Shown: positions 40,165-53,922 of the stretch, piece after piece
Numbering within the stretch: position 1 is the stretch's first letter
How the letters are laid out: every line of letters starts with the position of its first letter
Assembly: GCF_029872155.1 (NCBI RefSeq)
Contig: NZ_JARXLA010000005.1
Coordinates: 372,001 to 436,000, forward strand
Length of the DNA stretch: 64,000 nucleotides
Direction of reading: 5' to 3'
DNA from: Hyphomicrobium sp. D-2
Lineage (GTDB): Bacteria; Pseudomonadota; Alphaproteobacteria; Rhizobiales; Hyphomicrobiaceae
The notes under the pieces: model-generated
Databases searched by the model: none
Seen by the model: the letters and a program-made list of their open reading frames with translations, nothing else
Told to the model about the DNA's origin: nothing
Made by a program: the position numbers and the translations under genes

Positions 40165-40647
40165 TCGGGACGCCCAATTCAATTTTGAAACACAGCGTTG
40201 CTGGATGGGCAGGCGCCGCGAACTTTGCGCGTGCGCCCGCATACTATCGCGCCACGATATAATGCCGCATCTGAGCTGAAGGGCTGCGGCGTCGACGCCG
40301 CAGTTGGGAAATGTTCCTGCGGAAAACCGCTGGCCGAATTTACGGTTCCCTAACGGTGCTTTCACAATCCGTTCCATTTGAGCCAAACGGGCCGTTTGGT
40401 CTCAATTACTCTAGGGACTGACTATTATCTGAATTATCGTTATAAATCAGCGATTTGCTGGCGCATTCGCGCCAATCCGTCCGACAGAAACGGTTAACGG
40501 ACGTATTCAAATTATCAACACTCTGGGCGCAACGTCCGGCCCTCGAGAGGGGCCGCTTTGTCTGGGTCGCGCTGACCGACGGTTGGTCCGGGCTATGCAA
40601 GGCTTGGCGCGGGACTGCTGTCGCAGTCCGCGTGCAGAGGTAGCTGA
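40165..40647 (+). other. Promoter region of the carrier-protein cluster
   Basis: About 480 bases without a gene. A palindrome ccaaacgg-g-ccgtttgg lies at 40383-40399, followed by an A+T-rich stretch (about 40400-40460, ttatctgaattatcgttataaatc) that is the likeliest promoter for the five genes that start at 40648. The palindrome could be an operator. No structured RNA recognised. Confidence 0.5.
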
Positions 40648-41763
40648 GTGAGTTACACATCAGGCAAACAGGAAGCCATCCGGCCGTGCCGTCGCGACGA
40701 TGTCGACGCATTGGCGGGACTGTTTGCGCGCTCGTTCCGTGACGGCAAGGGCGGCGGCAGCACGGAGTTGCGCCGCTATTTCGAAGATGTGGTCTTCACG
40801 GGCGTGGGCGCCGGCGAAGAACCCCGTTCGCGCGTGTTCACCGATAGCACAGGCGAGGTTCGCGGCTTCATTGGCATCTGGCCGCGACAGATGCAACTCA
40901 ATGGACGATCCATCAGCGCAGCGGTGGCGGGTTCAATGATGGTCGATCAGCCAGAGTTGCACCCGACCGCTGGCGCACGCCTGTTGCGCAGTTTTCTATC
41001 CGGTCCGCAGGATCTTTCGTTCAGCGAAACCGCCAACGGCATCTCGCAGCGCATGTGGCAGAAGGTTGGCGGCTCGCAGCTGTCCGCCGGTAGCCTAGAC
41101 TGGTTGCGCGTCGTGCGCCCGGCGGGGACTGCGGTTGCGGCGGCACAGCATGCGTTCCGACCGGCTGGCCTCATGCGGCCGCTGGCATCGGGCTTTGATA
41201 TGTTGCTGCAGCGGCTGGATCGTAATCCGCTTGCATTGCCCGCCGCGCAGGATGGCGTGCACGATGTCGAAGCAACGGCGGCGGACATTGAAAGCCTGAT
41301 CCCGGAGCTGAGCCGCACCTATACGCTCTATCCCGACTGGCACACGCCGTCGCTGTCGATGTTGTTGACCCACGCAGAGGCGAAAGAACGCTACGGCGTG
41401 CTGCAGCGTCGTATCGTTCTCGACCGCAACAGCAAGCCCGTGGGTTGCTACCTGTTTTATGCGCGCCGCGGGCAGATCGCGCGCGTGCTGCAGGTGCTGG
41501 CACTGCCCGAACACGTCGGCACGACGCTTGATGCGCTGTTCCGCCGTGCGCAGGAACTGGGCTGCGTCGCCATTCGTGGCCGTGCGGACGATGTTCTGCT
41601 TGATGCGCTGGTTGCGCGTCGCTGCGTTTTGTTCCATGGCGCGTCGACATTGGTGCATGCCCGCGACAAGGAACTGCTGCGGGAGGTGTGTCATGGAACG
41701 GCGCTGCTGACGGGGCTCGCGGGCGAGTCCTGGACACGTTTTGTCGGCGGCGAGTTTGCGTAG
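40648..41763 (+). CDS. GNAT-like N-acyltransferase, first gene of the carrier-protein cluster
   Basis: 371 residues from a GTG at 40648 with AGAGG seven bases upstream. The N-terminal part resembles a GNAT domain (IRPCRRDDVDALAGLFARSF, then VRGFIGIWPRQM); the C-terminal part has a second GNAT-like region (LDRNSKPVGCYLFYARRG, then VLQVLALPEHVGTTLDALFRRA). The layout is like FemAB/GNAT fusion acyltransferases that act on carrier-bound or cell-wall substrates. It is 27 bases ahead of the AsnB-like gene, so it belongs to the cluster. It would supply or cap an acyl group; acceptor unknown. Confidence 0.7.
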   Translation: MSYTSGKQEAIRPCRRDDVDALAGLFARSFRDGKGGGSTELRRYFEDVVFTGVGAGEEPRSRVFTDSTGEVRGFIGIWPRQMQLNGRSISAAVAGSMMVDQPELHPTAGARLLRSFLSGPQDLSFSETANGISQRMWQKVGGSQLSAGSLDWLRVVRPAGTAVAAAQHAFRPAGLMRPLASGFDMLLQRLDRNPLALPAAQDGVHDVEATAADIESLIPELSRTYTLYPDWHTPSLSMLLTHAEAKERYGVLQRRIVLDRNSKPVGCYLFYARRGQIARVLQVLALPEHVGTTLDALFRRAQELGCVAIRGRADDVLLDALVARRCVLFHGASTLVHARDKELLREVCHGTALLTGLAGESWTRFVGGEFA

Positions 41764-41790
41764 ACGCTTCAGGCGTCCGGGAGAGTAACG

Positions 41791-43806
41791 ATGTGCGGCA
41801 TTGCCGGCTTTTATCGTCTGCCGATTGCGCCTGACCGCAAACGCGGTCAGCTACAGCGCATGATCCGCACGCTCGCCCATCGCGGGCCGGACGGTGACGG
41901 CGTGTACGTTGACGGCGATGCCGGGCTTGCCCATGCGCGCCTCAGCATCGTCGATGTCGACGGTGGCCGTCAGCCGATGAGCAACGAAGACGGCACGGTT
42001 TGGGTTTCGTTCAACGGCGAAATTTTCAACTATGTCGAACTGCGCGAGGGTCTGATTGCGCGCGGACACGTTTTCAAAACAACCTCCGACACTGAAGTAA
42101 TCGTGCATCTGTACGAAGAGCGCGGGCCGGACTGTGTTGAGATGTTCAACGGCGACTTTGCATTCGCCATCTGGGACAGCAATCGTCAACACATGGTGCT
42201 GGCCCGCGATCGCGCAGGCGTGCGGCCGCTCTATTATACGCAAAGCGCTGGTGGCATCGCGTTCGCGTCCGAGGTCAAGGCGCTGTTGACGCTGCCCGGC
42301 GTCAAAGCGGAGCTTGATCCTATCGCGCTCGACCAGATGTTTACGTTCTGGTTTCCGCTCGCGCCGCGCACCCCATTCAAGAACATTAGCGAGCTGCCGC
42401 CGGGACACGTGATGATCGTCAATCGCGATGGCGCGCGGACACATCAATACTGGCGCTTCGACTATCCCGATGCGGCGGACGATCGACCGGTTTCGGCAAA
42501 AGAAGAAGCGCGTCTGACGGAAGAAGTACGCGCGCTGTTGCTGGATGCTGTGCGTATTCGGTTGCGGGCCGATGTTCCGGTCGGTGCCTATCTCAGCGGC
42601 GGGCTGGATTCATCGATCACGACTGCTGCGATACGCACGTTCACGCCCGACACGTTGCGATCGTTCTCGGTTGCGTTTGCCAATGCGGAGTTCGACGAGA
42701 GCGCCTTTCAGCAGGAGATGGTTGCGGCGCTCGATCTGAACCACGCGGTGACGGTGTGCGAGGAGAACGATATTGCGACGGTGATGGGTGATGTCATCCG
42801 CCATGCCGAGCGCCCGCTGATGCGAACCGCACCAGCGCCGATGTACATGCTGTCGCGACTGGTGCACGACAACGGCATCAAGGTTGTGATGACTGGCGAG
42901 GGCGCTGACGAAGTGTTCGCCGGTTATGACGTGTTCAAGGAAGCCAAGGTGCGCCGCTTCTGTGCCGCGCAGCCCGGTTCGCGTTTGCGGCCGCTGCTTC
43001 TACGTCGCCTTTACCCCTATATGCCGCGCATGAATGCGCAGTCGCAGCGCTATCTGGAAGCGTTTTTTGGCAACCATCGGGACAGCATCAGCGATCCGCT
43101 CTATTCGCATCTGCCGCGCTTCCGCTCCAGCCAGGGTGCGAAGGCATTCTTCTCGGCGGAACTGCGCGATGAAATCGGCGAGTACGACGCGTTGGATGAT
43201 CTGCGCGAGCGACTGCCGCCTGAGTTCCAGCGCTGGCATCCGCTATCGCAGGCGCAGTATCTGGAAAGCGCTTATCTGCTACCGGGATATATTCTGTCAT
43301 CGCAGGGTGATCGGGTTGCGATGGCGAACGCGGTTGAAGGACGCTTTCCGTTCCTCGATCATCGCCTGATGGAATTTGCAGCGCGCATCCCGCCGCGACT
43401 GAAGCTGAAGGGACTGCGTGAAAAGCACATCCTGCGTGAAAGCGTTGCGGACCTTCTGCCGACGGATATCGCACGACGTCCGAAGCAGCCCTATCGGGCG
43501 CCGGAAAGTCGCGCGTTCGTCGGCACGGCGGCCGGAGCTGAGATGTTGACGCGCATGAGCCGCTCCAGCATTGCGGACGCGGGGTATTTCGACGGCGCGC
43601 TCGTTGATCGTCTGGTCAACAAGTGCACGCGATTTGCATCGACCGGTTTCCGGGACAACCTGGCTTTTGTTGGAGTGCTGTCGACGCAGGTTTGGCACGA
43701 GACTTTTGTGCAGCAGTCATCTGTGGGCATTGGCACGCCGCTTGCTTCGTCCCAGCCAGTTAACTCTGATGGCAATGGCCGCGCGCGTGTTGCCGTCAAT
43801 TCGTAA
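41791..43806 (+). CDS. AsnB-like glutamine-dependent amidotransferase
   Basis: 671 residues. Catalytic Cys2 in MCGIAGFY begins a class II glutamine amidotransferase domain (RGPDGDG, LSIVD, FNGEIFNY, TSDTEVI), which releases ammonia. An asparagine-synthetase ATP-pyrophosphatase domain follows with PP-loop SGGLDSS at 269-275 and TGEGADEVFAGYD. The ammonia would be joined to an adenylated carboxylate. The setting beside a carrier protein and an AMP-forming ligase argues for a pathway-specific amidotransferase rather than ordinary asparagine synthetase. The C-terminal about 30 residues are a Ser/Val-rich extension. GGGAG lies about 8 bases upstream. Confidence 0.9.
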   Translation: MCGIAGFYRLPIAPDRKRGQLQRMIRTLAHRGPDGDGVYVDGDAGLAHARLSIVDVDGGRQPMSNEDGTVWVSFNGEIFNYVELREGLIARGHVFKTTSDTEVIVHLYEERGPDCVEMFNGDFAFAIWDSNRQHMVLARDRAGVRPLYYTQSAGGIAFASEVKALLTLPGVKAELDPIALDQMFTFWFPLAPRTPFKNISELPPGHVMIVNRDGARTHQYWRFDYPDAADDRPVSAKEEARLTEEVRALLLDAVRIRLRADVPVGAYLSGGLDSSITTAAIRTFTPDTLRSFSVAFANAEFDESAFQQEMVAALDLNHAVTVCEENDIATVMGDVIRHAERPLMRTAPAPMYMLSRLVHDNGIKVVMTGEGADEVFAGYDVFKEAKVRRFCAAQPGSRLRPLLLRRLYPYMPRMNAQSQRYLEAFFGNHRDSISDPLYSHLPRFRSSQGAKAFFSAELRDEIGEYDALDDLRERLPPEFQRWHPLSQAQYLESAYLLPGYILSSQGDRVAMANAVEGRFPFLDHRLMEFAARIPPRLKLKGLREKHILRESVADLLPTDIARRPKQPYRAPESRAFVGTAAGAEMLTRMSRSSIADAGYFDGALVDRLVNKCTRFASTGFRDNLAFVGVLSTQVWHETFVQQSSVGIGTPLASSQPVNSDGNGRARVAVNS

Positions 43807-43828
43807 TGTACGGGTGAGTATCAAGACC

Positions 43829-44104
43829 ATGTCAAACGCACTTAAAACGTCGATCCGCGAATTCGTAGAAGCGAGCTTTCTTTTTCGCGAAGGTCGCAAC
43901 GGTCTGACCAACGATGAATCGCTGTTGGCCGCCGGTCTTATCGATTCAACGGGCATCCTGGAGCTCGTGGAGCATCTCGAAACCAACTTCGGCATCACCG
44001 TCGAGGATGACGAGATCGTTCCGGAAAACCTCGATTCTATCGATCTGATTGCTGCCTATGTGGCCCGCAAGCAGGGCGCCAAGATTACCGGCATTGCGGT
44101 TTAA
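43829..44104 (+). CDS. Acyl/peptidyl carrier protein
   Basis: 91 residues, acidic and helical. The phosphopantetheine Ser40 lies in GLIDSTGILELVEHLE, with Thr after the Ser where Leu is usual (DSL to DST). The rest fits a discrete carrier protein: FGITVEDDEIVPENLDSIDLI. Housekeeping acpP is about 78 residues with DSLD, so this is a dedicated carrier. The ATG is 23 bases after the amidotransferase stop; a GTG at 43814 is in frame, and the frame opens far upstream inside the previous gene, which is not meaningful. Confidence 0.88.
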   Translation: MSNALKTSIREFVEASFLFREGRNGLTNDESLLAAGLIDSTGILELVEHLETNFGITVEDDEIVPENLDSIDLIAAYVARKQGAKITGIAV

Positions 44105-44158
44105 AGCCGAAGCAAACGCTCGTTCTGAAATACGGTCAACTGGTGGTGGGGTACGGCG

Positions 44159-45721
44159 ATGCGCTTTGAATCGTTTCTGCGTGCAAGTGCGATGCGCTTT
44201 CCCGATAAGACGGCACTCGTTGCCGGCAATCGGCGCCTGACCTACAGCCAGCTCGACGATATTTCTGATGAACTGGCGCAGGGGCTGATCCATCGCGGGA
44301 TCGAAACGGGCGATCGTGTTGTCCTGTTTCTGGACAACAGCGTTGAAGCGGTTGTTTCAATTTTTGCCGTGCTGAAGGCTGGCGCTGTCTTCAGTCCCGT
44401 TAATCCTTCGACCAAGACAGACAAGCTCAGCTACATCCTGAATAACTGCCGCGCCAAGGCAATCATCGCGCAACAGAAGACGGCGTCAGTTGCGGCGGAA
44501 GCTATTGCATCGGCGCCATCGGTTGCGGTGAGCGTGATTGCCGATGGTGAAGCCGTGCCGGCCGGGTTTGGCGCGTTGCATTGGAATGATGTGCTCGCAG
44601 CACCAGAGTTTTCGCTGCTGCAGAACGCGCCCGGCATCAATGTTGATCTGGCGATGTTGATCTATACGTCGGGCTCGACGGGGTTCCCGAAGGGCGTGAT
44701 GATGACACATCAGAATGTCGTCGCAGCCGCCACATCCATCACGACGTACCTTGAGAACACGGCCGACGACATCATTCTCAACGTGCTCCCGGTTGCGTTC
44801 GATTATGGTTTGTACCAGGTGCTGATGGCCATCAAGGTCGGTGCCACGCTGGTGCTTGAGAAGTCATTTGCGTTCCCGCAAGTCATTCTGAAGCGCTGTG
44901 AAGAGGAGCGCGTGACGGGCCTGCCGCTCGTTCCGACGATGGCTGCAATTCTTGTTGGACAGCGCAACCTTGCACCGGGTGCGTTGCCGCATCTGCGCTA
45001 CATCACGAACACTGCTGCGGCGCTGCCGCCGACGCACATCGAAAAGCTGCAAGCGCTGTTTCCGCACGCGGCGCTGTATTCGATGTATGGCCTGACGGAA
45101 TGCAAACGCTGTACGTGGCTGCCGCCGAACGAGCTTAAGAACCGCATTTCGTCCGTTGGTGTCGCCATTCCCGGCACGGAAGCTTATGTCGTCGATGACG
45201 AGGGCCAGCGCGTCGGGCCCGATGTTGTCGGCGAGCTGGTGATCCGCGGCGCACACGTGATGAAGGGATACTGGGAAAATCCGGAAGCAACCGCCAACGC
45301 GCTGCGTCCGGGGCCATATCCGTGGGAGCAGGTTCTTTACACCGGCGATCTGTTCCGCACAGACAGCGAAGGCTTCCTCTATTTTGTCGGTCGCAAGGAC
45401 GACATCATCAAATCGCGCGGCGAGAAAGTTCCGCCGAAGGAAGTTGAGAACGTCATTTATGCGCTGCCGGGCGTCGCCGAAGTTGCCGTGATCGGTGTGC
45501 CGGATGCAGTGCTGGGCAGCGCTATCAAGGCGGTTGTTGCGCTGGAGTCGGATACGGACATCGGCGCGCAGGACATCATCCGCCACTGCGCGCGCTTCCT
45601 TGAAGATTACATGGTTCCCAAGCTTGTAGAATTCCGGCCGTCGCTGCCAAAGACGGATTCCGGAAAGATCAGTCGTCGCCTCGTTAGTGAGGCCGAGAGA
45701 GGGCAGAATGCAGCGCTCTGA
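44159..45721 (+). CDS. AMP-forming acyl ligase (ANL superfamily)
   Basis: 520 residues. The adenylation core shows the P-loop YTSGSTGFPKG at 169-179, MYGLTECKR as the A5-like motif, YTGDLFRTDSEGFLYFVGRKDD and IKSRGEKVPPKEVEN for the hinge, and Lys503 in KTDSGKISRR as the A10 catalytic Lys. It should activate a carboxylic acid as acyl-AMP and load it on the carrier protein encoded just upstream. It resembles acyl-CoA ligases found with exosortase/exopolysaccharide gene sets, as I recall. The substrate cannot be read from the sequence. Confidence 0.88.
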   Translation: MRFESFLRASAMRFPDKTALVAGNRRLTYSQLDDISDELAQGLIHRGIETGDRVVLFLDNSVEAVVSIFAVLKAGAVFSPVNPSTKTDKLSYILNNCRAKAIIAQQKTASVAAEAIASAPSVAVSVIADGEAVPAGFGALHWNDVLAAPEFSLLQNAPGINVDLAMLIYTSGSTGFPKGVMMTHQNVVAAATSITTYLENTADDIILNVLPVAFDYGLYQVLMAIKVGATLVLEKSFAFPQVILKRCEEERVTGLPLVPTMAAILVGQRNLAPGALPHLRYITNTAAALPPTHIEKLQALFPHAALYSMYGLTECKRCTWLPPNELKNRISSVGVAIPGTEAYVVDDEGQRVGPDVVGELVIRGAHVMKGYWENPEATANALRPGPYPWEQVLYTGDLFRTDSEGFLYFVGRKDDIIKSRGEKVPPKEVENVIYALPGVAEVAVIGVPDAVLGSAIKAVVALESDTDIGAQDIIRHCARFLEDYMVPKLVEFRPSLPKTDSGKISRRLVSEAERGQNAAL

Positions 45722-46739
45722 TATTTCGTCTGTGGCCGATAGTGAGTTCTCGCGTGAGACGTTGCAGCTTGATGCTGCGGTGGCTGTGCGCGCGATCACG
45801 CAGGGCATTTCCAACCAGGTGCTGCGTCGCTTGCGCCGTCGCGGCGCTGTGATTGGTCTTTCTGGTGGCATCGATTCAAGTGTGACGGCGGCGCTGTGTG
45901 CTGCTGCGCTTGGGCCTCAGAATGTGATGGCCGTGCTGATGCCGGAGAAGGATTCCGATCCCGACAGCCTGCGTCTCGGCCGTCTGGTTGCGGAGACCTA
46001 TGGCATCGGCCATGTGGTCGAAGATATCGCGCCGACGCTTTCGGCTGCGGGATGCTATCTGCGCCGAGATGGTGCCATTCGTGAGCTGTTTCCGGATTTC
46101 GGTCCGGATTGGAGCTGCAAGGTTGTTCTGTCGAACGTGCTGCATGGCAACCGTTATAGCCTGACCAAGCTTGTGGTTGAAACGCCTGCCGGTGAGCGTC
46201 GCGAGGCGCGGATGCCGATCGGCGTCTATCAGGCGGTGGTGGCAGCGACCAACATGAAGCAGCGCATCCGCAAGCAGCTTGAATATTACCACGCTGACCG
46301 GTTGAACTATGCCGTGGCCGGCACGCCGAACCGGCTGGAGTACGATCAGGGCTTCTTCGTGAAGAACGGCGATGGCGCTGCCGACTTCAAACCCATCGCG
46401 CATCTCTACAAGTCGCAGGTTTATCAGCTCGCTGAAGAACTTGGCATCCCGGCTGAAATCCGCCAGCGTCCGCCGACGACTGACACTTGGTCGATGGCGC
46501 AGACGCAGGAGGAATTCTACTTTGCGCTGCCCTACGAGCAGATGGACCTGTGCCTTTATGGGCTGGAGCACGCGCTAACTGCTGAAGCCGTCGCGCAGGC
46601 AACGGGTTTGACGGAGGAGCAGGTTACGCTGGTGTGGCAGGACATCGAGGCGAAGCGCAAGGCAACGCGCTATCTGCACGAGCCGCCGCTGCTGATTGAT
46701 GAGGATGAAGCCGATCGCAGTTTCGGGCAGGTGGCCTGA
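45708..46739 (+). CDS. NadE-like ATP-dependent amide ligase
   Basis: 343 residues from the ATG at 45708 (GAGAGAGGGC upstream), overlapping the ligase gene by 14 bases. PP-loop SGGIDSS at 52-58, then AVLMPEKDSDPDS and the NAD-synthase-like YAVAGTPNRLEYDQGFFVKNGDG and DFKPIAHLYKSQVYQLAEELG. There is no glutaminase domain, so it would use free ammonia or another amine. Rhizobial housekeeping NAD synthetases are usually long glutamine-dependent enzymes; this one is embedded in a carrier-protein operon, so a second amide-forming step on a pathway intermediate is likely. Ordinary NAD synthase activity remains possible. Confidence 0.85.
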   Translation: MQRSDISSVADSEFSRETLQLDAAVAVRAITQGISNQVLRRLRRRGAVIGLSGGIDSSVTAALCAAALGPQNVMAVLMPEKDSDPDSLRLGRLVAETYGIGHVVEDIAPTLSAAGCYLRRDGAIRELFPDFGPDWSCKVVLSNVLHGNRYSLTKLVVETPAGERREARMPIGVYQAVVAATNMKQRIRKQLEYYHADRLNYAVAGTPNRLEYDQGFFVKNGDGAADFKPIAHLYKSQVYQLAEELGIPAEIRQRPPTTDTWSMAQTQEEFYFALPYEQMDLCLYGLEHALTAEAVAQATGLTEEQVTLVWQDIEAKRKATRYLHEPPLLIDEDEADRSFGQVA

Positions 46740-46814
46740 GCTGAATAAGGCGCGTTGTCGCTGCCGCGGCTAGGTTGATCGGCAGACGATATAATCAATC
46801 GCTTTGAATACATG

Positions 46815-46850
46815 AATGCCGCGCGGCTCCGGTTGCGCGGCATTTTCTTT
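46815..46850 (+). terminator. Strong terminator of the carrier-protein cluster
   Basis: A perfect 10-bp GC-rich stem aatgccgcgc (46815-46824) with gcgcggcatt (46835-46844) and a T-rich tail TTCTTTT. It lies 75 bases past the last gene of the cluster and ends at the stop of the convergent glk gene. Confidence 0.9.
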
Positions 46851-47824
46851 TATAATCCGTTGCGGGGGCTGCGTATCAGGGCGGCAGCACCGATCAGCGC
46901 GGCGTCATGGCGTGTGATGACATAGGTTGGAATTGCCGCCAGATAATCGCTGAAGCGACCCTTCGTTTCAAAGCGCTTGCGAAACGGCGACGCTGCGAAG
47001 CAATTACCCAGCCGGGGGACAATTCCGCCCGCGATATAGATGCCGCCGCGGCAGCCCAGTGTCAGCGCGACATCGCCCGCAACAGTGCCCAACATCGCGC
47101 AGAACATGGCGACCGCTTCGTCGGCGCGCGCGTCCGTGTCGGCAAGCGCTGCCTCGCAGATGGCGGCAGGTGTCAGTTGGATCTCATCCAGCCCATCGCT
47201 GATGCACAGCGATGCATAGATGTTGGTGATGCCCGGTCCCGAAAGCAGCCGTTCGGCGGAGACGTGTCCGAAACGTGCGCGCAGAATATCCAGCACGGCA
47301 GCTTCGCGACTGTCACTTGCGGCCATGGTCACGTGGCCGCCTTCTCCCGGCAGCGCGATGTAGCGCTCGCCCGACCACACGCACGCGCTGACACCGAGGC
47401 CGGAGCCGGGACCGAGCACGGCCATTGGGGCATGCGTTACCGGATTGCCGCCGCCGATTTGCAAGACATCTTCATTTTGCAGATAGGGTAGCGCCAGCGC
47501 GTTGGCGTGAAAGTCGTTGATGACGTGCAAGTCGCCGATGCCGATACGCTGCGTCAGATCAGTTATTGAAAACGACCAGGGGTTATTGGTGAAACAAACC
47601 TGATCGCCGTCGGGTGTTGTCGCCACTGCCAGCACGGCGCGTGGCGGCGTCGGTGCGCGAACGTCGGTGAGATAAGCTGCAATCGCCGCATCGAGGTTAC
47701 AGTGATTGCTGCACAGGAAGCTGGCGAAATGCGACAGGTTCCCATCGGCGTCAGCTAACGCAAAACGCGCGTTCGTGGCGCCGATGTCGCCGACCAGATG
47801 TCGTCCGCTCAGGTGCGATGTCAT
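46850..47824 (-). CDS. glk: Glucokinase
   Basis: Phosphorylates glucose with ATP. 324 residues from the ATG at 47824 (a TTG nine bases earlier is in frame). Signatures of the Glk (non-ROK) family: GDIGATNARFAL at the start, INDFHANALALPYL, LGPGSGLGVSACV with the phosphate-binding Gly-rich loop, LPGEGGHVTMA and GGIYIAGGIVPRL. Length is normal for the family. It is monocistronic and convergent with the preceding cluster. Confidence 0.93.
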   Translation of the reverse strand: MTSHLSGRHLVGDIGATNARFALADADGNLSHFASFLCSNHCNLDAAIAAYLTDVRAPTPPRAVLAVATTPDGDQVCFTNNPWSFSITDLTQRIGIGDLHVINDFHANALALPYLQNEDVLQIGGGNPVTHAPMAVLGPGSGLGVSACVWSGERYIALPGEGGHVTMAASDSREAAVLDILRARFGHVSAERLLSGPGITNIYASLCISDGLDEIQLTPAAICEAALADTDARADEAVAMFCAMLGTVAGDVALTLGCRGGIYIAGGIVPRLGNCFAASPFRKRFETKGRFSDYLAAIPTYVITRHDAALIGAAALIRSPRNGL

Positions 47825-47920: not shown

Positions 47921-48856
47921 CTAGATTGGCGTGCCGCAGCGGAAGACACCATTGGCGACAGTGTCGTCATACGGTGTCAAATCTTCCAGCATCGACCCAG
48001 CTGGGCAGAGGCAATTGGGTGCGCCAGACAACACGATGGCATGCGATGAGCCATCTACAGAGCAATAGCTGGGACCGGCGGGAGCAGGTGTCGATTGTGC
48101 TTTCACGATCTTCGGGAACACCGGCAGGTATGCTTCCGGATCATCCTGACGGTTGCGATCAATCAGCGACTTGTTGTTGTCGCCGCTGAGATAGATCTTG
48201 AGGCCGCCTGTGATGCTTGCATAGTCGCTGCGGCCGAAGTCACTGCGTGCAAACAGCGAAACCGGCACATCGGTTCCCGATAGAAGATATTCAGCGCCCG
48301 CCGATCCAAGGCTCATCTCGCTGACATAGCGATAGCCTGCCGACACCTTGAAATTGTCGGTGATGTAATAGGCTGCATCGAGGTGGCCGAAGAAGCTCGA
48401 GTCATCCTTGTTGAGTACGGCCAGACCATCGGAAAGCCGCGGAAAATCGATGTATTCGTAACCGGCAAGACCGGACAGCGTGAAGCGCTGGAGATACAAT
48501 TCGGCTTCGCCAGCCACGCGCCAGATGCCGATCGAATCCCAAGTGTGATAGCTGCCGAACACGCCAAGCAGATAGCTGGATGGATCGCGCGTGAAGAGGT
48601 GAAGTCCGCCGCCGCCCATGATCTGACCGTCGATGGAGCCTACCGCGCCGTCTGCCTGCAGACCGAACGTGTGACCGAGCGGTAATGAGAGACTGCCGGT
48701 CGCGATACCGGCGCCACTGTCATCGTATGTGCCGCCTTCAACGCTGACTTTTCCGTTCGGTCCAGACACCGCGGAAAAATCATTTGCGGATGCTGAAACT
48801 ACAGTTGAAGCGCTCACAAGGAGGGCCAACAGGACAGGCTTCGCCATTGCCAGCAT
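47921..48856 (-). CDS. Outer-membrane-type protein, paralogue A
   Basis: 311 residues with a signal peptide (MAKPVLLALLVSASTVVSASA). The mature protein has alternating amphipathic strands rich in Gly, Tyr, Ser and Asp (VSVEGGTYDDSGAG, YLLGVFGSYHTWDSIG, NFKVSAGYRYVSEMSLG) as in beta-barrel proteins, to about residue 230, then a polar tail with four Cys (YCSVDG, CLCPAG and FRCGTPI). A paralogue lies immediately upstream in the same orientation (49019-49940). Function unknown; the Cys-rich tail is not typical of porins. GGGAATAAG precedes the ATG. Confidence 0.75.
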   Translation of the reverse strand: MLAMAKPVLLALLVSASTVVSASANDFSAVSGPNGKVSVEGGTYDDSGAGIATGSLSLPLGHTFGLQADGAVGSIDGQIMGGGGLHLFTRDPSSYLLGVFGSYHTWDSIGIWRVAGEAELYLQRFTLSGLAGYEYIDFPRLSDGLAVLNKDDSSFFGHLDAAYYITDNFKVSAGYRYVSEMSLGSAGAEYLLSGTDVPVSLFARSDFGRSDYASITGGLKIYLSGDNNKSLIDRNRQDDPEAYLPVFPKIVKAQSTPAPAGPSYCSVDGSSHAIVLSGAPNCLCPAGSMLEDLTPYDDTVANGVFRCGTPI

Positions 48857-49018: not shown

Positions 49019-49940
49019 TTAAACCGGATTTCCGCACGTATAGAAGCCACCCAGTGCGGGAATGAATTGCGGCTTCTGTCCGGAGAGGGGCGTGCTGGAT
49101 GGGCAGGTGCAATCAAAATTCGACGAAACCTTATAATCTGGGCTTGGACCGACAACGCATTGGTTAGATCCTTGCTGTGTTGCTGTTCTCAGCTTCGGAA
49201 ACACCGGCATGTAAATTTCAGGATCGTCGCGGCGATTGCGGTCGATCAGCGATTTGTTGCGGTCGTCGCTGAGATAGATCTTCACACCGCCGGTGATGCT
49301 GTTGAAGTCGCTGTTGCCAAAATCTCCGCGCGCGAACAGTGACATGGGCACGCCGTGATCGCGCAGCAGGTATTCAGCGCCCGCTGCACCGAGGCTGGTC
49401 TCGGCAACGTAGCGATAGCCGCCGTAGATCTTGAAATCATCGTTGATGTAGTAGGCGACGTCACCGATGCCGAAGAAACTTTTTTCATCCTGCGTCAGCA
49501 CCGGCAAACCGCTCGCCAGCGAAGGTACGTCGATGTTCTCATATCCGGCGAGCGCGGAAACCGTGAACCGCCCTAGGTAAAGTTCGGCTTCGGCAGCGAT
49601 GCGCCAGATGTCGATGGAATCCCAGGTGTGATAGCTGCCGTACACACCGAGCAGATAGCTGGACGGATCGCGCGTGAACAGATGCACGCCGCCGCCACCC
49701 AAAACGTCGCCATCGACGTTGCCGACCGCGCCATCGAACTGCACACCGAGATCTGTGACCGAGCGGCAGCGAAAAGCTGCCGAGCGCCAAGCCTGCGGCT
49801 TCATCATCGAATGTTCCACCTTCCACACTGAGCTTGCCGTTTGGACCGGAAACAGCCGGTAACTCGCCCGCTGCCGTCACCCCAGGAAACAGCAGAGCAC
49901 ACAGCAGAATACTTGCTAAAACCGTTGGCTTTAACAGCAT
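49019..49940 (-). pseudogene. Outer-membrane-type protein, paralogue B, interrupted by a one-base frameshift
   Basis: Close tandem paralogue of the downstream gene. It starts at 49940 with a signal peptide (MLLKPTVLASILLCALLFPG, cleavage after VTAAG) and reads in frame to FSLPLGH at about 49757; there the frame shifts and the homology continues in another frame (DLGVQFDGAVGN ... YTCGNPV) to the stop at 49019. Comparing with paralogue A (LGHTFGLQADGAVG) shows one extra base, an A in CACAGATC at 49755 or its neighbour, restores equal length if removed. The downstream reading frame has no other defect and the C-terminal Cys are kept. Either a recent pseudogene, a phase-variable or programmed shift, or a sequencing error. 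Confidence 0.75.
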
Positions 49941-50240: not shown

Positions 50241-52388
50241 TCAATTGACGCGTGTGACCTCGACGAGATTGTCGGAATAGGTCGGCGCGCGGCCAATGCC
50301 CGACCATGCGTCGGACGATATCGAATTGACTGAACCGTCGGAGCGATTGCGCGAGCGCCAATAACCCAGCGTGGCGACAACGATGCCAGGGTTCACGTCG
50401 TCGGTTACGCGGGCAACGCCTTCGAAATTGCCGCGCGCATTGGCAACGCGTACCGGATCGCCCTCGCGGATGTTGCGCGCGTTCGCATCGAGCGGCGAAA
50501 TCAGCACATACTGCTCGCCCTGGATGCGCACCTTGTGCGGTTCGTTCGCATAACAGGAGTTGAGGAACGCGTGGCTCTTGGGCGAGATGATGTTGAGCGG
50601 ATATTGCCGCGCCAGATCAGGGCAGGTTTGTGGTGATCTGCGGTTGGGAACATAGCCGGGCAGCGGGTCCAGCAGGTCGCCGTCCTGTTCACCCTCGTAC
50701 ATGGCGCGGAACGGCGGAGCGACAAAATTGCGGGCGTCGTTCAGCAGCATCTCGACTTTGCCGGATGGCGTCGGGAAGTTGCCTGCAGCGTGGGGCACGC
50801 GGTTGTCGGCGGTGCCGACGTTGACGCGAAAATAGCCGTGGGTGCGGAAGTGCTCCATGTCGATGCCGCCCATGCGCGGATCGTCCCACAGCAGATAGGC
50901 TTCGCACAGCTCACTGTCGGTCATCTGGAAGATGGGATCGTCAAACTCCATCTCCTTTGCCAGCAGGCGCCACATATCGCTGGTGGGTTTGCACTCGCCC
51001 GGTGGCTCAACGGCCTTCTGGTTATAGGTGAGATAGAAGTGCCCCCACGACCACATCATGTCTTCCGCTTCGGCCGCCATGGCCGCTGGCAGGATGATGT
51101 CGGCGTATTTGGCCGTGTCGGTGATGAAGTGCTCGGCGACGATGGTGAAAAGATCTTCGCGCTGTAATCCGGCGCAGATCTTGTTTGTCTCCGGCGCCTG
51201 ACTGACCGGATTGGTGCAGAACACGAACAGGCTTTTGATTGGCGGATCGAGTTGCATCTCGCCGGTTAGCGCCTGGCCTAGCCGCAGGTTATTGACGACG
51301 CGTGTGCCGGGCTTGATCCAGTCCGGCCGTGCGGCCTTGGCCCAGTCGACCGGGAACTCCCACAGTGGCAATTGCAGGACGCCGCCGCCGACATGGCGCC
51401 ACGCACCGGCTAGGGCAGGCAGGCAGTAGATGGCGCGCGAAGCCTGGGCACCGCCGGCGGAGCGCTCTATGGCGACGCCAATGCGGATTGCGGCCGGTTG
51501 CGAGGTGGCGTATTCGCGCGCGAACTTCATCACATCGGCGGCCTTCACACCGGTGATTGCCTGCACGTATTCCGGCGTGAATTCCTTGGCGCGTTCTTTC
51601 AGCTCCGGAAAACCCACCGTGTAATTGTCGACGTACTCCTGATCGACGAGACCCTGCGCGATCATGGAATTGATGATGCCCATCGCCAGCGCGCCATCGG
51701 TGCCCGGACGCGGACAGATATGCCAGTCGGCGCCCTTGGCCGTGCGTGAGCGGAACGCATCGATGACGACAACCTTCGCGCCGCGTTTGCGCGCTTCGAG
51801 CACGAACGGCCAGTGATGCAGGTTGGTGGAAATGGTGTTGCACGCCCAGATGACGATATACTTCGCGTGCACGAAGCTTTCCGGGTCGACGCCGCCGGTA
51901 GGGCCAATCGTCAGCAGCCATGCCGATGATGAGCCCGATGTGCAGAAGGTCTTTTCGTTGACGGTCGAGCCGAGGCGATTGAAGAACGGATCGCCGGAGT
52001 TGATGCCCTGCACCAGCCCCATGTTGCCCAGATAGCTGTAGGGCATGATGGCTTCGGCGCCGTGCTCATCGATGATGGCGCGCCAGCGCTGGCCGATCTC
52101 TGAAATCGCTTCGTCCCAGGTGATGCGCTCAAAATTGTTGCCGCCGTTAGGGCCCGATCCCTTCGAGCCGACGCGGCGCAGCGGATACATCAGCCGTTCC
52201 GGGTTGGCGTGGTGGTCGTGAAAGTCTTTCAGCTTCACGCACAGGGTGCCGCGCGTGATGGGGTGATCCTTGTTGCCGCGCACGTTGACGAGTTTGCCGT
52301 CCTCAACCTCGTAGTGCATCGAGCAGGTATCGGGGCAGTCGTGGGGGCAGGCACCAAAATAGGTTTCCTGCTTTACCTGATCGTCCAT
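50241..52388 (-). CDS. Molybdopterin-dependent oxidoreductase (DMSO reductase family), orphan catalytic subunit
   Basis: 715 residues from the ATG at 52388, which has GGGAGG upstream; an ATG at 52424 is less likely. An N-terminal 4Fe-4S site is formed by Cys14, Cys18, Cys22 and Cys50 (CPHDCPDTCSM and TLCVK). The rest is the molybdopterin-binding domains (WACNTISTNLHHWPF, RPGTDGALAMG, and a final dinucleotide-binding domain, SPLDANARNIREGDPVRV). There is no signal peptide, so it is cytoplasmic. No partner electron-transfer or membrane subunit is adjacent, so electron partner and substrate are unknown. Family members include formate dehydrogenase-like and thiosulfate/polysulfide reductase-like enzymes. 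Confidence 0.88.
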   Translation of the reverse strand: MDDQVKQETYFGACPHDCPDTCSMHYEVEDGKLVNVRGNKDHPITRGTLCVKLKDFHDHHANPERLMYPLRRVGSKGSGPNGGNNFERITWDEAISEIGQRWRAIIDEHGAEAIMPYSYLGNMGLVQGINSGDPFFNRLGSTVNEKTFCTSGSSSAWLLTIGPTGGVDPESFVHAKYIVIWACNTISTNLHHWPFVLEARKRGAKVVVIDAFRSRTAKGADWHICPRPGTDGALAMGIINSMIAQGLVDQEYVDNYTVGFPELKERAKEFTPEYVQAITGVKAADVMKFAREYATSQPAAIRIGVAIERSAGGAQASRAIYCLPALAGAWRHVGGGVLQLPLWEFPVDWAKAARPDWIKPGTRVVNNLRLGQALTGEMQLDPPIKSLFVFCTNPVSQAPETNKICAGLQREDLFTIVAEHFITDTAKYADIILPAAMAAEAEDMMWSWGHFYLTYNQKAVEPPGECKPTSDMWRLLAKEMEFDDPIFQMTDSELCEAYLLWDDPRMGGIDMEHFRTHGYFRVNVGTADNRVPHAAGNFPTPSGKVEMLLNDARNFVAPPFRAMYEGEQDGDLLDPLPGYVPNRRSPQTCPDLARQYPLNIISPKSHAFLNSCYANEPHKVRIQGEQYVLISPLDANARNIREGDPVRVANARGNFEGVARVTDDVNPGIVVATLGYWRSRNRSDGSVNSISSDAWSGIGRAPTYSDNLVEVTRVN

Positions 52389-52625
52389 TGCGCGCCTCCC
52401 CAGCGACGTCTTTTGTTGTTGCACTCAGTGGCGGCAATAGGATGGCTCTATCGCGCCATAGAGAGCGTCGTGCGGCACTTTGGCATCGATGCTGATGTCG
52501 ATCAAGCGGAGGAACGGGCAGCGCCAGGCAGATGCGCATGCGATGCGAGGTGTCCATAGCACCACGACATTCGCTGGCCTGCAGGCTTGGATTGAGAAAC
52601 GGGCGCCGCTTTATTGGCTATCGCC

Positions 52626-53684
52626 TCAGCGTACGCTGTTGCCTGGATAGGTATGCGTTTCGCCGCGACTGTCGCTGACGCACAGGCTGTCGCCGTCGCG
52701 ATGAACGTAGTTCGGGCCGATCGGAACCTTGCCGTGTGCGCCGGGAATATCCAGCACATAGGTCGGCATCGCGAGCCCGGAAATCCGGGAGCGGAGCGCC
52801 TGCATCAGCGCCTGCCCCTCTTCGATGGACGTGCGCAAATGCGCGGTGCCGGGCGCAAGGTCGCCGTGGTGCAGGTAATAAGGCTTGATGCGATTTTCGA
52901 CGAAGGCGCGCATCAGCGTTGCCAGCGTTTCGACGTTATCGTTCACGCCGCGCAACAGCACCGTCTGGCTGACCATGGCGACGCCGCTGTCGATCATGCG
53001 TGAGCATGCGTTGCGGGCCGCATCGGTCAACTCGCGCGGGTGATTGGCGTGCAGCGCGACGTATACCGTTTTACGCGGCGCCTTCAGCGCTTTGACCATC
53101 GCGTCGGTCACGCGTTCGGGTGCAACGACGGGCACGCGTGAATGCCAGCGAATGATTTTGACATGGTCGATGGCGTCGAGCGCGGCGGTCACTTCGGCAA
53201 TGCGGCGCGGCGACATAATGAGCGGATCGCCGCCGGTGAGAATGACCTCCCAGATTTCCGGTGTCGCGCGGATGTAATCAAGTGCCGCCTGCAGTTCCTG
53301 TTCGCCGAGCGCGTTGCTTTTGCCGGGGCCGACCATCTCGCGCCGGAAGCAGAAGCGGCAATAAACCGGACACACATGCACCAGCTTCAGCAGCACGCGA
53401 TCGGGGTAACGGTGAACGATGCCGGGCACGGGGCTTTTTAGTGTGTCACCGATCGGGTCGGCATTCTCTTCGGGCAGGATGTCTAATTCGCGCGGATCGG
53501 GAATGAACTGACGCGCGATCGGATCGTCAGGGTTCGAAGTATCTATCAACGCCGCCATCGCAGGCGTAACGGCAACCGCATACCGGCTGCCGACCGGCGC
53601 CAGTTCGTCAGCACGCCGCGCCGGGATCAGGCCGGCATCGGCCAGATCGTCGGTGGAGGTTAGCGTTCTGCGAAATGCCGTCAT
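52626..53684 (-). CDS. epmB: EF-P beta-lysylation protein (lysine 2,3-aminomutase family)
   Basis: Radical SAM, PLP-dependent isomerisation of L-alpha-lysine to beta-lysine for EF-P modification. 352 residues from the ATG at 53684; the open frame extends to 53894, but the extra 70 residues are not family-like. Radical SAM cluster Cys105, Cys109 and Cys112 in CPVYCRFC, the PLP Lys319 in GAHGKVP and the SAM-binding GGDPL are visible. Near efp and epmA, so EpmB rather than a catabolic KamA, although it is separated from them by three genes. A catabolic lysine 2,3-aminomutase is the alternative. Confidence 0.88.
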   Translation of the reverse strand: MTAFRRTLTSTDDLADAGLIPARRADELAPVGSRYAVAVTPAMAALIDTSNPDDPIARQFIPDPRELDILPEENADPIGDTLKSPVPGIVHRYPDRVLLKLVHVCPVYCRFCFRREMVGPGKSNALGEQELQAALDYIRATPEIWEVILTGGDPLIMSPRRIAEVTAALDAIDHVKIIRWHSRVPVVAPERVTDAMVKALKAPRKTVYVALHANHPRELTDAARNACSRMIDSGVAMVSQTVLLRGVNDNVETLATLMRAFVENRIKPYYLHHGDLAPGTAHLRTSIEEGQALMQALRSRISGLAMPTYVLDIPGAHGKVPIGPNYVHRDGDSLCVSDSRGETHTYPGNSVR

Positions 53685-53922
53685 GCCTTGCCTGTGCCTG
53701 CAACGGAAAACGCTGCGGTTGCCGCTTCCGAAAATGGCCCCGGACGGCCCGCGTGATGAATGCGCCACGGCGCAAAAAGTTTGCTGCGGCCGTTGTTGAT
53801 AGCTGGGAAACGCCTGAACAACCACACTACAGGACGCCGCTTTTCGCGTACGGATGAGGCCAACCAGTGCATGCGTCCCGTCAGTTGAAGTCACTCCGTA
53901 GTGGGTTGTTGAGGAGGCGTTT

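Follow-up and report, generated by a model that had tools for sequence, protein, structure and literature searches.

The locus

We analysed a 64,000-nucleotide stretch of Hyphomicrobium sp. D-2 DNA (the window, in which all positions are given unless one of our contig handles is named) and focused on positions 40648–46739, where the + strand carries five open reading frames (ORFs), A to E, all in the same direction. A (40648–41763, +; 371 aa, GTG start) would be a tandem-GNAT-like transferase, on the strength of a sub-threshold Pfam GNAT match and an AlphaFold2 model. B (41791–43806, +; 671 aa) is an AsnB-type glutamine-dependent amidotransferase by its family models, its Cys2 and its PP-loop, and C (43829–44104, +; 91 aa) is a discrete carrier protein that matches PF00550 and has a DST attachment site. 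D (44159–45721, +; 520 aa) is an AMP-forming ligase, recognized by family models and invariant residues, that we propose loads C. E (45708–46739, +; 343 aa), which begins with an ATG at 45708 and has an in-frame GTG at 45687, belongs to the NF002048 (PRK00876) branch of NadE-like PP-loop enzymes. The intergenic gaps are 27 (A/B), 22 (B/C) and 54 (C/D) bases, and D and E overlap by 14 bases; the ORF coordinates thereby bear out the layout described in an earlier note on this DNA.

That note also placed the genes between an A+T-rich leader with palindromes and a perfect terminator, and a leader of this kind and a strong terminator-like stem are present. The leader (40165–40647, +) is moderately A+T-rich, with a G+C content of 56% against 61% for the window and 45% at 40340–40470, and contains three perfect short palindromes (40284–40303, 40383–40399 and 40612–40629). 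Between E and a convergent glucokinase gene lies an intrinsic-terminator-like stem (46814–46845, +) of 14 pairs (G-T allowed), 8 of them G-C, with a T-rich tail. It is the longest of nine terminator-like sites in the region, a number that is no excess over the shuffle mean of 8.1. A search of the + strand over 40165–46900 yielded no sigma-70-like promoter.

B, C, D and E form a gene unit

With E as the tblastn query against named genomes (E ≤ 1e-3), we retrieved at least 575 stretches encoding a relative, possibly including canonical enzymes, and kept the best 80, which were searched by tblastn with the five window proteins. C and D were each found in 79 of these 80 loci, B in 65 and A, within 8 kb, in 65; B, C, D and E occurred together in 64, and all five genes in 50. 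At least two of the incomplete loci (L015 and L057) are short contigs. Because the 80 loci are those nearest to the query, we also sampled genomes without regard to context, 150 from the order and 299 from the phylum. The NF002048 cut-off was passed in 6 order genomes and 13 phylum genomes, Hyphomicrobium sp. D-2 being counted in both, and stretches of 16–20 kb around E were taken from the 17 other positive genomes. Near E, both C and D were present in 17/17, B in 16/17, A in 7/17 and a PrmC-like methyltransferase in 6/17. As a control, the same queries were applied to the surroundings of the canonical NAD synthetase in 40 loci, hand-picked from 147 genomes with a match. There we found C in none, A in 1, B in 2 and D in 4, whereas E matched in 38, because the canonical NAD synthetase is itself homologous to E.

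Set against the controls, these counts establish that B–C–D–E is a real gene unit and that A is a frequent partner, and they establish the gene content and conservation of the unit. Adjacency of these genes elsewhere is thus not rare, in agreement with the conserved module that the earlier note had proposed. The four-gene core ranges over Rhizobiales, Azospirillum, a betaproteobacterial metagenome-assembled genome (MAG) and MAGs assigned to other phyla. In a group of loci in which A was not found (L112, L210, L214, L216 and L094), the genes stand in the alternative order E-B-D-C, and a methyltransferase of PrmC-like or class I type comes next; L085 resembles this group, with a different gene order.

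E is an additional NadE-like enzyme

E scores 506.1 bits against NF002048 (cut-off 313), a model named NAD(+) synthase, and its domain list holds NAD_synthase and no glutaminase domain. The same genome encodes a canonical, full-length glutamine-dependent NAD synthetase (C2:800149–801792; NF010588, 809.7 bits), and a full-length enzyme of this kind accompanies E in 6/6 carriers of the order sample, Hyphomicrobium sp. D-2 included. E is therefore established as an additional copy beside the full-length enzyme, and a role as the sole, housekeeping NAD synthetase is ruled out, which agrees with the suggestion of the earlier note that E may do pathway chemistry. E retains the P-loop and the motif GTPNR-E----GFFVKNGDGAAD--P common to solved NH3-dependent NAD synthetases, and its best likeness among solved chains is to the NH3-dependent enzyme 2e18. 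In the segment PTTDTWSMAQTQEE it departs from the five solved enzymes with which it was compared, and an insertion of about 60 residues holds invariant positions. The routine naming of E as an NAD-making enzyme is probably mistaken.

Two minor observations concern NadE-like matches elsewhere. Among 14 control genomes, Methanosarcina acetivorans alone exceeded the NF002048 cut-off, and a NadE-like match in a fragmented assembly (G087:C997:10757–11722, L206) has one in-frame TAA.

Ligase, carrier and amidotransferase

The product assignments of the earlier note held up for B to E. D consists of an AMP-binding domain and a C-terminal domain. We aligned 88 ligase rows, drawn from the window, the genome loci and the plasmid loci, with Sinorhizobium meliloti present twice, and named the pocket positions from what we take to be the nonribosomal peptide synthetase (NRPS) code. 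Tyr216, Met309, Arg317 and Lys503 are invariant in 88/88 rows. At position 215, the counterpart of the Asp in amino-acid-activating domains (those of linear gramicidin synthase), 56 rows have Asp, 24 Gly, 7 Thr and 1 Asn. The conserved Arg317 and the variable position 215 suggest that the substrate probably carries a group that meets the arginine, and that the reading of an amino group probably differs between branches. We dropped the idea of a strictly amino-acid ligase, since Asp stands at position 215 in just 56/88 rows. In the ligases of the 80-locus set whose loci lack B beside the module (L017–L020, L026, L032, L034, L051, L053, L056, L064, L073 and L083), Gly replaces Asp at this position in 13/13.

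C exceeds the cut-off of PF00550 (PP-binding; 22.1 bits against 20.8). The attachment residue Ser40 and the DST motif, which the earlier note had seen in place of DSL, are kept in 88/88 rows, and DST is therefore a mark of this carrier family.

B contains GATase_7 and Asn_synthase domains. Its Cys2 is present in 73/73 rows and its PP-loop is conserved. Against the asparagine synthetase model TIGR01536 it scores 530 bits (cut-off 267.1), whereas for its nearest named subfamily, TIGR03108, it stays below the cut-off (455.9 bits against 816.9). A nearly invariant motif of the 73 rows, KQPYRAP, takes the place of KEQFSDG in Escherichia coli AsnB, from which B also departs before PMY. Two more AsnB-family proteins of the genome exceed the TIGR01536 cut-off (C8:489658–490812, L160, and C5:158630–159709, L161), and with these at hand, asparagine supply would not need to depend on B.

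GNAT-type proteins and methyltransferase neighbours

The GNAT-like character that the earlier note had given A appears in its predicted fold and not in its Pfam score. An AlphaFold2 model (mean pLDDT 92.8, 41 sequences) shows twice in succession what we take to be the GNAT order of strands and helices, whereas the score against Pfam GNAT PF13527 is 14.5 bits, below the cut-off of 25. On the model, A looks like a tandem-GNAT-like transferase. After E in the Azospirillum loci and two Pirellulales loci is a GNAT-domain protein of 347–368 aa, and two of the three such proteins scanned exceed a Pfam cut-off, so that a GNAT-type transferase recurs even in loci without A. In profile comparisons, A matched the Azospirillum protein over only about 90 N-terminal columns and had no meaningful match to the other two.

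A PrmC-like methyltransferase was found by tblastn near the module in 21/80 loci, and the motif [ND]PP[YFW] is present in 15/15 members of this neighbour family. Such a motif commonly marks enzymes that N-methylate amides or amines, and by this analogy the neighbour would fit an amide product.

Polysaccharide context

The module of Hyphomicrobium sp. D-2 stands alone, with no polysaccharide family found nearby. In other lineages the setting is richer. In Azospirillum ramasamyi and A. thermophilum, genes for an O-antigen ligase, glycosyltransferases and a polysaccharide deacetylase are followed by C, D, B, E and a GNAT gene; in Shinella zoogloeoides XJ20 the module lies inside an exopolysaccharide cluster. 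In the betaproteobacterial MAG it is accompanied by an exosortase-associated DUF3485 gene and by genes of the GDP-mannose dehydratase, flippase and glycosyltransferase types; in genome G359 the company consists of Wzy_C, a deacetylase, glycosyltransferases and a weak GNVR match. In S. meliloti, where the module is located on pSymB, an A homologue is situated about 10 kb from B–E; next to it are a methyltransferase gene and one of lipopolysaccharide type, and GumC lies farther away. The module records of Shinella HZN7 and Rhizobium ACO-34A are without polysaccharide neighbours.

Elsewhere in the Hyphomicrobium sp. D-2 genome, a locus on C1 encodes a polysaccharide tyrosine autokinase (above the TIGR01007 cut-off) and two Wzy_C matches. 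None of seven polysaccharide queries from other genomes matched this locus, and we therefore do not name it as a partner exopolysaccharide cluster; one glycosyltransferase query weakly matched a different stretch of the genome.

Relation to known systems

The closest known systems are the XrtA/PEP-CTERM (exosortase A) loci. The best exosortase-linked score of D is to TIGR03098 (477.2 bits) and that of B is the TIGR03108 score given above. The TIGR03098 ligases examined share the equivalents of Met309 and Arg317 and have Asp at the equivalent of position 215 (20/20), and both systems are found in exopolysaccharide settings. A decarboxylase is said to accompany TIGR03098. By contrast, D is below the TIGR03098 cut-off of 592.35, as B is below that of TIGR03108; the exosortase model PF09721 finds nothing at E ≤ 0.01 in the Hyphomicrobium sp. 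D-2 genome; and in 20 of the 21 TIGR03098 loci of the 299 genomes, those examined, we found neither E nor A, with weak matches to B in 3 and to C in 1. These differences rule out membership in the exosortase-A set, although by analogy the module may function as a relative of those loci. The earlier note had set the cluster apart from exosortase loci. The genome indeed lacks a PF09721 match, but the contrast is less sharp than claimed, given the exopolysaccharide context in several lineages, once beside DUF3485.

Other likenesses are partial. Compared with NadE enzymes (NF002048/PRK00876; NH3-dependent 2e18 and others), E shares the P-loop and core motifs and scores above the cut-off; unlike them, it is extra to a full-length enzyme and tied to B–C–D, its segment on the acceptor side is altered, and it carries a conserved insertion. 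The nearest named carrier families to C are those of the ornithine-lipid (OlsHI; 55.7 bits, far from its cut-off of 130) and cispentacin (AmcB; 44.2 bits, far from its cut-off of 80) pathways. These matches are just distant, and neither pathway is supported, the former corresponding to the OlsH/OlsI carrier-protein system (PMC12493201). An AsnB-family gene in an exopolysaccharide setting is also seen in floc-forming bacteria: two asparagine synthetase genes belong to the cluster conserved in Zoogloea resiniphila and Aquincola (PMC9012009), and the cluster map of Thauera has one, near a polysaccharide deacetylase (PMC4784049). Unlike the module, these clusters come with no mention of a NadE-like gene as far as the available text of the two papers goes ('NAD', 0 matches in PMC9012009 and PMC4784049).

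A proposed pathway and its alternatives

We propose, tentatively and with slightly less than even confidence, that the five genes form one biosynthetic module in which an acid is adenylated, loaded on a carrier, amidated and transferred by a GNAT enzyme, often to exopolysaccharide. D would adenylate a carboxylic acid with ATP and load the acyl group on C through its phosphopantetheine arm. B, with glutamine-derived ammonia, and E, as a recruited NAD-synthetase paralogue using free ammonia, would each adenylate a carboxylate of the intermediate or of the acceptor and form an amide. A would move the finished group from the carrier to an amino or hydroxyl acceptor, which in several lineages is probably an exopolysaccharide building block. 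The pair of amide-forming enzymes suggests two carboxylates or two acceptors. A broader proposal, possible yet more doubtful, is that a PRK00876-branch NAD synthetase paralogue has been recruited in Pseudomonadota as a carrier-pathway amide synthetase, and that a widespread, undescribed B–C–D–E plus GNAT route puts an amide-bearing acyl group from a DST carrier on extracellular polysaccharide. If so, the name NAD(+) synthase would be wrong for the PRK00876 branch.

Several points weigh against this pathway. We infer each reaction, the order of the steps, the substrate and the acceptor. A went undetected in 10/17 context-blind loci. B is missing from 13/80 loci (Rhizobium, Neorhizobium and related names), which keep C, D, E and A; in the three of these that were read, other genes fill its place, and two amide-forming enzymes side by side are thus not always needed. 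To judge from how much of the NadE core it has kept, E could still use a dinucleotide substrate. Two or more of the seven polysaccharide families are near 19/80 module loci against 0/40 controls, a comparison that is partly circular, because the queries were taken from recurring neighbours of module loci; three housekeeping neighbours chosen in the same way reach 12–13/80 against 0/40. In 56/80 loci, none of the seven is nearby.

That last count, with the window itself, would suit a product of another kind, namely a free small amide that serves as a compatible solute or signal, with the polysaccharide neighbours incidental. Such a route would work like N-acetylglutaminylglutamine amide synthesis, which pairs a GNAT with an AsnB-like amidotransferase. 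B does match the model of that amidotransferase (TIGR03104, 361.4 bits), but under its cut-off of 570.1; to our knowledge, moreover, the N-acetylglutaminylglutamine amide pathway has no carrier protein or AMP ligase, and polysaccharide clusters house the module in Azospirillum, Shinella, G359 and the betaproteobacterial MAG. We therefore consider a free amide unlikely. Another option is that B is an ordinary asparagine synthetase, and that D loads asparagine, or a similar amino acid amide, on C, which would leave only D, C and A as pathway enzymes, with E doing something else. The TIGR01536 score of B and the Asp at position 215 of D in 56/88 rows speak for it. TIGR01536 is undiscriminating, however, since both remaining AsnB-like proteins of the genome match it as well, and 32/88 rows have Gly, Thr or Asn at position 215; KQPYRAP and the difference before PMY are just a hint in the same direction. 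This makes asparagine supply a distinctly improbable role for B. Finally, E could be a second ordinary NH3-dependent NAD synthetase whose position beside B, C and D is historical and unrelated to pathway chemistry, given the retained P-loop and GTPNR motif and the name attached to NF002048. With a full-length enzyme already in 6/6 order-sample carriers, C and D adjoining E in 17/17 context-blind genomes, the deviating segment and the insertion with its invariant positions, we give this explanation very little weight.

Although the individual parts are known, the gene set as such is not found described: a literature search aimed at it, with poor coverage of subscription papers, returned no description. 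The annotated records that we read label the core genes one by one: B as asparagine synthase, C as acyl carrier protein, D as acyl-CoA ligase or AMP-binding protein, and E as NAD(+) synthase. Viewing them as one carrier-based amide pathway would correct a family-wide name and give directly testable enzymology. The module is also a candidate source of amide chemistry that is so far unexplained in the exopolysaccharides of rhizobia, Azospirillum and others.

Flanking genes of the window

Five flanking proteins were scanned (SH3-domain, glucokinase, outer-membrane-barrel, molybdopterin oxidoreductase and aminomutase-like), and no sugar-polymer gene was found among them. Adjacent genes at 47921–48856 and 49019–49828 on the − strand encode look-alike proteins of the outer-membrane-barrel type, which we judged by eye to be a tandem duplication; the first, the one of the pair that was scanned, has a weak OMP_b-brl match. 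Further on, a lysine-2,3-aminomutase-like radical SAM protein (52626–53894, −; above the TIGR03822 cut-off) is encoded next to the molybdopterin oxidoreductase gene at 50241–52424.

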